From Candidatus Brockarchaeota archaeon (GTDB lineage Archaea > Thermoproteota > EX4484-205 > JAAOZO01), in NCBI GenBank assembly GCA_017601145.1, contig JAFNIV010000012.1:1-46139 (forward strand): a stretch of DNA of 46,139 bases, read 5' to 3'. A program made the position numbers and the translations under genes. This document shows, in pieces, positions 27,522 through 45,932 of the stretch. Position 1 is the first letter of the stretch. The number at the start of each line of letters is the position of its first letter. The notes beneath the pieces are model-generated. The model was not told the origin of the DNA, searched no databases, and worked only from the letters and a program-made list of their open reading frames with translations.

Positions 27522-27998
27522 TTAAGAGATTGGAGAGGATGGGCTTGAGCTCCCAATGAAACCAATTGTCAGGGTCGAGCTAAAGTCTAAATACTTTAGT
27601 TTTTCAACTAATTTTGGCAGTCCTTCTATGTCTTTCGCATTTCTTATAACTAATACTCTAAGTTTTTTCCACGTTAAATAATCAACGTCTGCAATTCCTC
27701 TTAGTACTCTAGACCATTGTTGGTATTTTTTCTCTCCTCCTCTGTCAAAATCTGGCATTATTACTATTTTCTTTCTTTTCCCTCTTTCCTGCAGTTTACA
27801 TATCAGCTTTGAGAAATTCCTCCCTTTAACCTGAAGTACTTCAGCCTTAGTTCCTAAACTTTTAAGCGCAGATATGTCTTTCTTACCCTCTACTAATATT
27901 AAACTATCTTCGTCAAGAGAAATTAGATACTTTACAAGTTCCATAATTTTGTTTACATCATCAAAATTTATCCTCCTGTTATAATTCCTTTGGGACAA
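27522..27998 (-). CDS. Small Toprim-domain protein
   Basis: This 158-residue protein has a Toprim core: SLILVEGKKDISALKSLG (strand plus catalytic Glu) and IVIMPDFDRGGEKK (DxD motif), the pattern shared by RNase M5, OLD nucleases and DnaG-type primases. It resembles short archaeal stand-alone Toprim proteins of the COG1658 type, presumed RNA or DNA processing factors. The start appears to be TTG 27998. The last ~15 residues are Ser/Pro-rich. It is divergent from dnaG, itself a Toprim protein, with about 80 bp between starts, and its 3' end comes within 8 nt of the structured RNA at 27418. Confidence 0.75.
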   Translation of the reverse strand: MSQRNYNRRINFDDVNKIMELVKYLISLDEDSLILVEGKKDISALKSLGTKAEVLQVKGRNFSKLICKLQERGKRKKIVIMPDFDRGGEKKYQQWSRVLRGIADVDYLTWKKLRVLVIRNAKDIEGLPKLVEKLKYLDFSSTLTIGFIGSSSPSSPIS

Positions 27999-28079: not shown

Positions 28080-29280
28080 TTGGTCGCAGAGTCTGAAGTT
28101 CATGGAGGTCCATACTTTAAGTATCTTATAAAAATAAAATTTGAGGTCGAGGGTGTGGTGGAAAGGGATTAGCCCCCCACAAAAGCATGATGTCATAGGT
28201 GCCATATTTGGTCAAACTGAAGGCTTGTTTGACGAAACCCTTGATCTCAAAAAATTACAGAAGTCTGGGAGAGTAGGCCGTATAGATGTAGATCTAAAGA
28301 CAGAGGACAATAAAACTACGGGTATAGCTGTAGTTCCTTCTTCTCTTGATCAAGCTACAACTGCCCTAATAGCTGCTTCTATTGAAAGTATTGAAAAAGT
28401 AGGACCTTACAATGCTAGTTTTTCGCTTGTAGAAATTGAAGACTTTAGGGAAAAGAAAAGAAAAGAAATATTGAAACGAGCTCAAGAAATAATGATAAAA
28501 TGGAAGGCAGTCAGAAAAACTGAAGAATCAAAAGCGCTATCTACAGTAATGGAAAAAGTTGAATCTGCAAAACCAGTGAGTTGGGGCCCAGATGAACTAC
28601 CTGCTGGGCCTGAGGTTGATGGTTCTGAGGAATTGATAATTGTTGAAGGAAGAGCTGATGTTGCCCTTCTTCTCTCCATTGGAATAAAAAATACAGTTGC
28701 TACAAACGGAGTGAATATTTCTCAGTCTTTAATTGAATTAACAAAAACAAAGAAAAAAGTAACGGCTTTCGTAGATGGAGATAGAGTCGGAGAAATGATA
28801 CTTAAAGAACTTCTTAGGATGAATGCAAAGATCGACTACGTTGCAGTAGCACCAAAGGGCAAAGAAGTTGAAGAACTTTCTCCCTCTGAAGCATTAGAAG
28901 TTCTTAACAAAGCTTTACCTTTGCACGAGTACCTTTCAACTACAACTTCGCAAAAGAAGCTCTTGCAACTGTCAAAGGAGCAAATAGCACTTTTAAAAGA
29001 AAAAGTAGCTCAAATCAGAGGCAAATTAACTTCATTACTTCTGGATGAAAATGGAAATGTTATCGAAGAAATACCAATAGGCGAGCTATACGAAAAGCTA
29101 GACAAACACGAAAACGTAAAGTACATTGTATTCGATGGCGTTATAACTCAAAGGTTACTTGATAAGTCTGCAAGTCTAGGAGTTTATGTAATTGTAGGCG
29201 AAAGAATAGGTAAAGTTGAAAAGCAGCCAGAAAAGTTACTTGCACTTAGAAGTGAAGATCTATTGCAACTTAGTGAGTAA
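28080..29280 (+). CDS. dnaG: Archaeal DnaG (Toprim primase-like, exosome-associated), interrupted by a 19-nt intron
   Basis: Joining 28080-28163 to 28183-29280 gives a ~393-residue DnaG. Exon 1 (TTG start) ends FKYLIKIKFEVEGVVE and exon 2 begins KHDVIGAIFGQTEGLF, together the canonical N-terminus. The 19-nt insert contains an in-frame TAG and shifts the frame. Downstream lie the Toprim motifs LIIVEGRADVALLL and TAFVDGDRVGEM. Archaeal DnaG binds the RNA exosome and has weak primase activity. A frame running only from 28141 would give a spurious N-terminus. Exon 1 has no ATG in frame; an ATG at 28069 is in another frame. The 3' end overlaps convergent tsr3 by 21 bp. Confidence 0.88.
28164..28182 (+). 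other. Predicted 19-nt BHB intron in dnaG mRNA
   Basis: The flanks fold as a bulge-helix-bulge: outer helix 28153-28156 with 28185-28188 (beyond a G-A mismatch), central GTGG (28158-28161) with CCAC (28177-28180), bulges AAA (28162-28164) and AAA (28181-28183), inner GGG (28165-28167) with CCC (28174-28176). Cutting after the second base of each bulge, as the archaeal endonuclease does, removes exactly 28164-28182 and restores the reading frame. Not experimentally shown here. Confidence 0.8.
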
Positions 29281-30038: not shown

Positions 30039-31573
<1,535 letters not shown>

Positions 31574-31587
31574 CGTAAAGGGACAAT

Positions 31588-31614
31588 CGCGCACCAGGTT
31601 AAGAGTTGGACGAC
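31588..31614 (+). other. 16S pre-rRNA processing stem, 3' strand (BHB)
   Basis: CGCGCACCA-GGTTAAG-AGTTGGACGAC complements 30002-30028, with the opposing 3-nt bulge (AAG). It closes the 16S precursor loop for excision. Confidence 0.85.
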
Positions 31615-31687
31615 TATTCTTTATGACCTCGAGATGATAATCTCGAGCGAAAGGTGCAATCTTCTCGAATAAGAGAAGAAATGAGCG

Positions 31688-31723
31688 CCGGCATAGGACA
31701 TGTGTATTTTTCTCAGCAGCTGT
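31688..31723 (+). other. 23S pre-rRNA processing stem, 5' strand (BHB)
   Basis: CCGGCATAGGACAT-GTGT-ATT-TTTCTCAGCA pairs with 34777-34807. The central helix is GTGT/ACAT and the bulges are ATT and AGA, a perfect BHB motif. Confidence 0.88.
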
Positions 31724-31730
31724 GGGGAAA

Positions 31731-34765
<3,035 letters not shown>

Positions 34766-34771
34766 TGACTT

Positions 34772-34807
34772 ACAGTTGCTGAGAAAACATAGAATGTCCT
34801 ATGCCGG
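34772..34807 (+). other. 23S pre-rRNA processing stem, 3' strand (BHB)
   Basis: ACAGTTGCTGAGAAA-ACAT-AGA-ATGTCCTATGCCGG complements the 5' strand at 31688-31723 and carries the second bulge. Confidence 0.88.
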
Positions 34808-34836
34808 TTTTATGATTTTTCTGTTTTATTTTTAGA
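34808..34836 (+). terminator. T-rich terminator after 23S
   Basis: Successive T runs (TTTTATGATTTTTCTGTTTTA) directly after the 23S processing stem, before the RNase P promoter. Such runs terminate archaeal transcription, and no 5S gene lies before it. Confidence 0.5.
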
Positions 34837-34874
34837 GTAAAGCTTTATTTAGTTTTCTCCTTATTTATCCTTTA

Positions 34875-35179
34875 GCTTGGGTGAGCTGGTGGGCGGATTT
34901 CGGGTCTGTAAGGGCCTGAGGAAACTTCCCTCTCATCACGGGTCTCATGGCGTCGTAAGACGCAAGGGGAGACCCTTAGCTACGAGACAGAAACTCCCCC
35001 CATCACAGAATGTGAATGATGGACAAAAAGTCCTGACTATTGTGAAAGAGGGGTTGAAAGCTAAGTCTCGTGAGGAGCAAGGCCAAACAAGTCAGATGAT
35101 TACCCGTGAGATGACTGGGTAGGCCGCTTAGACAAATTCCGCCTAAACAAAAAGGGAGTTACGGCCAGCACACCCAAGC
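34875..35179 (+). ncRNA. rnpB: RNase P RNA
   Basis: The ends form P1 (GCTTGGGTGAG with CACACCCAAGC). The 5' conserved region reads GAGGAAACTTCCC, the middle has ACAGAAACTCCCC, and the 3' part carries the P4-closing AGACAAATTCC followed by GGGAGTTACGGCC. This order matches archaeal type A RNase P RNA, ~305 nt. It trims tRNA 5' leaders with protein partners Pop5, Rpp30, Rpp21 and Rpp29. A CTTTATTTA element at ~34844-34853 is a plausible TATA box. A reading frame through it is a shadow. Confidence 0.92.
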
Positions 35180-38618: not shown

Positions 38619-38811
38619 TCTTATCAAAATTTAAATTTTTAGGAAAGCAACGAATCAAAACTACCTTTATAATAAACACTCTAAAAGTTTTTGCTAAAAA
38701 TCCTGCTTAAGATTAAGGTCTAAATCGACCTTACTTTATTTAGGTTAAGTTACATATTAAAGAAAGAGAAAAAAATTTAAAATAGTCCTTTGAAGTCTGA
38801 AAATGTTAGGG

Positions 38812-38900
38812 GCCGGTAGCTCAGTTGGTAGATCTGAAAGAGCCAAAAGTACTCGCTTGGCGTGCGAGGTGTCGTGGGTTCGACTCCCACCCGGTCCACT
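38812..38900 (+). tRNA. tRNA-Ala (GGC) with D-arm intron; integration target
   Basis: Acceptor GGGCCGG/CCGGTCC contains the G3-U70 alanine identity pair; anticodon stem CTCGC/GCGAG, loop TTGGCGT (GGC at 38861-38863). A 16-nt intron (38834-38849) splits the D arm: central helix TGGT/GCCA, bulges AGA and AAA, inner helix TCT/AGA with a GAA loop. Splicing gives D stem GCTC/GAGT. The 3' end (CCCGGTCCAC) is repeated at 41988-41997, the mark of element integration. Confidence 0.92.
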
Positions 38901-45807: not shown

Positions 45808-45893
45808 CGGGCCGGTAGTCTAGTGGTAAGACGCTGGCTTCGCATTTCCATAAGAAAAAGCCAGAGAGCGAGGGTTCGAATCCCTCCCGGTCC
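45808..45893 (+). tRNA. tRNA-Ala (CGC) with anticodon-loop intron
   Basis: Acceptor GGGCCGG/CCGGTCC with the G3-U70 pair, anticodon stem CTGGC/GCCAG, exon loop TTCGCA plus A (anticodon CGC at 45840-45842). A 14-nt intron at 45844-45857 sits at the canonical 37/38 position. T arm GAGGG-TTCGAAT-CCCTC is uninterrupted. It lies 20 nt after ileS and may be co-transcribed. Confidence 0.92.
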
Positions 45894-45932
45894 ATTTCCA
45901 CTTTGTTTGAATGAACAGATGTTCTTTATGTC

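Follow-up and report, generated by a model that had tools for sequence, protein, structure and literature searches.

In archaea, introns that fold into a bulge-helix-bulge (BHB) and are processed by EndA and RtcB are described for tRNAs, with lengths of 11–175 nt given in passages of PMC2738675. A BHB intron of 16–44 bp also occurs in the cbf5 pre-mRNA of Desulfurococcales and Sulfolobales, as the same passages report (PMC2738675, citing Watanabe 2002 and Yoshinari 2006). The same paper further cites inserts of 12 bp in a virus of archaea, and introns in additional protein-coding genes that were predicted but are unconfirmed (PMC2738675, in part); an earlier prediction for dnaG may exist among the latter. 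For the HVO_1309 mRNA of Haloferax, excerpts of a 2020 paper show that EndA acts on a messenger RNA, and according to them no additional archaeal BHB intron had been reported apart from that of cbf5 (PMC7714728). The literature that we searched (titles, abstracts and some passages, covering few subscription papers or preprints) contained no dnaG intron, and cbf5 was the only confirmed host of a BHB intron within a coding sequence in those texts. From the comparison of related genomes presented here, dnaG appears to be the second such archaeal gene.

The putative dnaG intron has the BHB and the cleavage rule in common with the tRNA introns, presumably also the enzymes, and it lies within their size range. 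Its host is an mRNA in which the exons rebuild a reading frame, whereas the exons of tRNA introns rebuild the tRNA fold. The proposed action of EndA on mRNA is shared with HVO_1309, whose EndA sites are in the 5′ untranslated region according to the same excerpts, while the BHB of dnaG interrupts the coding sequence. The cbf5 intron, as far as the cited passages describe it, resembles the dnaG intron in many respects: both are short (16–44 bp versus 18–32 nt) and located within the coding sequence, both have a mostly relaxed BHB, with the cut (predicted for dnaG) between the second and third bulge bases, in both the interior varies among species, and both split a function-critical region of a protein of RNA metabolism. 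They differ in gene, lineage and site; in addition, the cbf5 intron is backed by cDNA and EndA evidence in those passages, and the dnaG intron is known here from sequence comparison. The original prediction had held that an intron this small, in dnaG, would be new; as regards the size, this is contradicted by the range given for cbf5.

The window that we analysed is the whole stretch of 46,139 nt. It makes up contig 3 of an archaeal assembly of 1.62 Mb in 55 contigs, with a completeness of 86.5%, and comes from a poorly known group of hot-spring archaea. dnaG, which encodes an RNA-handling protein, spans positions 28080–29280 in two reading frames (Table 1). A stop codon directly precedes the upstream open frame, which presumably starts at the TTG and whose product reads L(M)VAESEVHGGPYFKYLIKIKFEVEGVVE; in this frame FKYLIKIKFEVEGVVE is followed by RD and the TAG codon, and the downstream frame starts with KHDVIGAIFGQTEGL. 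The sequence is thus as it had been described, and deletion of the 19 nt results in a single 1182-nt frame (393 aa plus stop) with the conserved N-terminus of DnaG. Exon 2 alone matches NCBIfam NF003108 ("DNA primase DnaG", E 6e-112) and enters the profile at position 22. No second full copy of dnaG was found in the window genome at its 86.5% completeness, and the only other match (27672–27908) is weak and corresponds to a neighbouring small Toprim ORF. This Toprim-like ORF (27522–27998, minus strand) is divergent from dnaG and has weak NCBIfam matches, below the cut-offs, to PRK04017 and ribonuclease M5. The window also carries 16S and 23S rRNA genes and, about 115 nt behind them and in the same orientation, RNase P RNA (30040–35173).

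Table 1. Positions of dnaG features in the window.
Feature	Position	Strand	Remarks
dnaG exon 1	28080..28163	+	28 codons, from the presumed TTG start to GAA (VVE); K-Y pair is residues 14-15
19-nt BHB intron (putative)	28164..28182	+	Excision rebuilds the conserved N-terminus; same-codon inserts and covarying helices in relatives
BHB element	28153..28188	+	Outer pairs 28153-28156/28185-28188 beyond a G/A mismatch; centre 28158-28161/28177-28180
BHB element, remaining parts		+	Bulges 28162-28164 and 28181-28183; inner helix 28165-28167/28174-28176
In-frame TAG	28170..28172	+	Ends translation of exon 1 if the intron is retained
dnaG exon 2	28183..29280	+	Encodes TOPRIM, the C-terminal parts and what remains of the N-terminal domain; stop codon included

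A BHB with a GTGG/CCAC centre, two AAA bulges, a GGG/CCC inner helix and four outer pairs had been proposed for the exon junction. The centre, the bulges and the inner helix are present, and a predicted fold of 41 nt draws the centre, the 5′ bulge and the inner helix. The outer helix is weaker than claimed: its four pairs are found only beyond a mismatch of G28157 and A28184, and two of them are G-U pairs. A cut at the second base of each bulge removes exactly the 19 nt, as suggested, and the same rule is upheld in the relatives. Taken alone, the window element is unexceptional and folds no better than shuffled sequences, with folding-energy z-scores of 0.30 (41 nt), −1.26 (61 nt) and −0.13 (141 nt). 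When the insert was shuffled 20,000 times, a BHB arose at the protein-restoring place in 0.16% of cases. Since folding of the single sequence is no better than expected by chance, the case rests on the relatives. The insert contains a run of six C (five in the congener); a miscount is possible, which would shift the length by one and leave the reading unchanged.

Among the genomes analysed, the order and the class of the window genome comprise the identical 12. dnaG was found in ten of them, and not in G003 (77% complete) and G009 (70% complete). Comparison of the dnaG loci and the DnaG N-termini, as recommended with the original prediction, revealed an insert at the identical codon in all ten. 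We scanned 120 nt upstream of a fixed anchor mechanically for a centre of 4 bp flanked by 3-nt bulges, one on each strand, and for an inner helix with 3 or more pairs; G-U pairs were allowed, and this architecture was detected in all ten genomes. Each genome had two to five candidates, and in every genome exactly one of these restores VVE(K/R)(H/S)D(V/I) when both bulges are cut between their second and third base. Removal of some other candidates (e.g., L001, L004–L008) also leaves the frame open, but without the conserved residues. When the inserts were shuffled, 0.08–0.8% of trials had any BHB at the restoring place; for the five inserts that were tested from beyond the genus of the window, the helix actually observed came up in at most 0.015%. 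Occurrence of inserts with the same architecture at the same codon in ten genomes puts the element far beyond chance.

Across the order, GTGG pairs with either CCAC or CCGC in the centre. The inner helix is short in the window's genus (3 pairs) and longer in the other genomes (6 to 10), and the outer helix has 2–3 adjacent pairs in eight of the ten genomes, while in the window's genus it begins with the G/A mismatch. Three sequences (L009, L010, L022) are more stably folded than most of their shuffled versions, with z-scores of −2.33, −2.48 and −2.01, but in their minimum-energy folds the 3′ bulge is wholly or partly closed, and the motif is relaxed there. Judged from the outer helices and the predicted folds, the motif is best called a relaxed BHB. 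In an alignment that was not fitted to the structure, with the structure taken from one row and five of the ten rows being close congeners, 96.5% of the cells were paired and 5 of 15 pairs had changed on both sides. Pairing fell to 34–62% when the partners were slid by 1–3 columns. The covariation score was 0.270, compared to 0.182 for shuffled and at most 0.107 for slid alignments. Five observed measures were reached by 0, 1, 0, 44 and 0 of 500 shuffles; the value of 44 applies to the number of further pair types, which gives weak support. The interruption in the relatives thus has a conserved structure, which is not the picture of a frame that is simply broken.

These comparisons strongly support the proposed BHB intron, and we assign a probability of about 0.93 to the view that 28164–28182 is an archaeal-type intron in the dnaG pre-mRNA. 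Two frames together with a hairpin would also suit a recoding site, at which programmed ribosomal frameshifting or bypassing skips the insert in translation and leaves the RNA intact. The inserts have lengths of 19 nt (window), 18 nt (congener), 32 nt (five genomes), 29, 30 and 23 nt, that is 1, 0, 2, 2, 0 and 2 modulo 3. The offset between the frames is therefore not constant among the orthologues, and since all residues modulo 3 occur, a single fixed frameshift is excluded. Moreover, the inserts of 18 and 30 nt keep the frame yet contain stops, and bypassing has no need of GTGG/CCAC, of two bulges or of junctions that follow the BHB rule. We consider recoding to be very unlikely.

Even less probable is a dead 5′ frame, with a shortened DnaG made from a start within the exon 2 frame. 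Such a start is available (TTG at 28141 opens this frame), and exon 2 scores as DnaG by itself. However, exon 1 is conserved in sequence and position in all ten genomes of the order, and it resembles the uninterrupted DnaG of other orders. Between the two congeners 7 of its 28 codons are changed, 4 of them synonymously and only 3 with an effect on the amino acid; by this comparison exon 1 is under selection. In exon 2, 156 of 366 codons are changed (127 synonymous) in an ungapped comparison, so that synonymous change is rarer in exon 1 (4/28 versus 127/366), although the numbers are small. The exon sequence close to the splice site behaves, in these small numbers, as if it were constrained at the RNA level too. 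A shortened product would also lack the conserved K-Y pair, and it gives no reason for the insert to retain its paired structure. For Sulfolobus DnaG, parts of one study report that the N-terminal domain binds RNA and that K6 and Y7 matter (PMC4227792), and the invariant K14-Y15 of exon 1 presumably correspond to these residues.

An assembly or sequencing error, for which the 55 contigs of an 86.5% complete genome and the six-C run might speak, is the least probable explanation and is refuted for the interruption itself by the inserts at the same codon in ten separate genomes, well beyond one assembly. One of the ten is a public MAG: the dnaG stretch of G001, the only other genome of the window's genus in our searches, is identical to that of "Thaumarchaeota archaeon SJ3.Bin70" (JAAOZO010000025.1). 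This MAG comes from a Yellowstone hot spring (PMC6368606). An intein was rejected, as the inserts have only 18–32 nt and are out of frame or contain stops. Identity with the cbf5 intron was rejected as well, because the host gene is dnaG and the site is not the codon for the catalytic aspartate of cbf5.

For the BHB intron we propose the following course of events. The transcript would fold around the exon junction into the BHB, and EndA, probably an (αβ)2 heterotetramer, would cut both 3-nt bulges between their second and third base. Ligation of the exons by RtcB would then yield a continuous frame of 1182 nt that encodes full-length DnaG. In an unspliced transcript, ribosomes that start at 28080 would read 30 codons before the TAG at 28170 ends translation, and the K-Y pair, which is conserved, would be severed from the TOPRIM and C-terminal parts.

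The window genome has RtcB and two EndA-type genes (PF01974). The product of the first (189 aa) matches the tRNA-splicing endonuclease chain 3p1z_B (E 1.5e-46), which we take to be a structure from Aeropyrum pernix, and retains the regions of the Tyr, His and Lys, presumably the catalytic residues. The product of the second (174 aa) also matches EndA chains but is without the His. At least two EndA-type matches were found in 11 of the 12 class genomes (one in G011) and RtcB in 9 of the 12; RtcB was not found in the incomplete assembly of the congener G001. The missing RtcB and EndA matches fall in incomplete assemblies.

In three genomes (G004:C12, G005:C9, G007:C4) a stretch of about 1.5 kb splits the RtcB match close to profile position 50, inside a single open frame of 975–985 codons; this stretch has the appearance of an intein within the RNA ligase. 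Two tRNAs of the window were matched by Rfam and not by ARAGORN. The one at 38810–38898 has a stretch of 17 nt in the D-arm, compared to 1 in the model, and perhaps carries a non-canonical intron, and the one at 45809–45894 has 17 nt in the anticodon loop, compared to 3 in the model, and probably carries an intron.

To determine the distribution of the dnaG intron, a gene was regarded as uninterrupted if one match in one frame extended from profile position 10 or less to position 100. Among the matches listed for 321 genomes outside the order (235 of a phylum sample plus 6 plus 80), 317 were uninterrupted, 2 had a second intron and 2 (G069 and G387) were cut by contig ends; this tally leaves out 65 of the 397 phylum genomes with matches and 9 of the 397 without a match. 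Six genes (G088, G172, G267, G360, G287, G299) show one stop each, and since the span equals the number of matched codons, they hold no insert. The stop of G088 sits immediately before the start codon and, to judge from the span, those of the other five presumably do so too. At two loci, L055 (G054:C2:116195-116425) and L056 (G073:C8:53721-53963), the N-terminal domain of DnaG has an additional, weak match in the same genome; the open frames there are short (146 and 157 codons) and perhaps encode stand-alone relatives of that domain. The cbf5 gene was not seen to be interrupted in the class: 11 of the 12 genomes have a TruB_N match, without an internal stop in the matched stretch.

The second intron was found when 397 genomes were drawn from the phylum, of which 388 had a match. 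Split dnaG matches occurred in G085 (C2, 62935–63248; L073, minus strand) and G192 (C1, 206979–207285; L074), which belong to one genus of family f31 in another order; the remaining 42 of the 44 genomes of that order are uninterrupted. The site falls within the codon for Q in FGQTEG, at a distance of ten codons past the first site, and the inserts have 26 and 19 nt. Our scan identified a CGGU/GCCG centre, the bulges CAA and AAA, and inner helices of 8 and 5 pairs. Left unconstrained, RNAfold drew a 5′ bulge of 3 nt, a centre extended to 5 pairs and a 3′ bulge of 4 nt. When the inserts are excised by the rule used for the first site, VGALFGQTEGIF and frames of 383 and 385 residues result, and both genomes have two EndA-type genes. 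By these features the insert is a separate, predicted BHB intron of dnaG. As far as seen, the first intron does not occur outside one class, nor the second outside one genus, and two separate gains are the simplest reading.

What makes the predicted dnaG intron notable is its presence in every dnaG found in a class, in spite of sequence turnover, and the apparently independent gain of another intron in the same domain. Genes of this kind will probably be annotated wrongly by gene callers, as truncated or frameshifted. DnaG is a cap protein of the exosome. A second host gene and a separate gain suggest that archaeal mRNA introns are not a single accident. We tentatively raise a view that we ourselves hold to be doubtful: BHB introns in coding sequences might be recurrent and perhaps regulatory in archaeal RNA-processing genes, dnaG would have gained one at least twice, ten codons apart in the RNA-binding domain and in separate orders of one phylum, with one of these introns kept through a whole class, and splicing may gate the output of DnaG through EndA and RtcB, which would tie RNA decay to the processing of tRNA and rRNA. 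A comparable negative regulatory role is proposed for the cbf5 intron in passages of PMC2738675. Gain, drift and possible function of such introns can now be compared between two genes.
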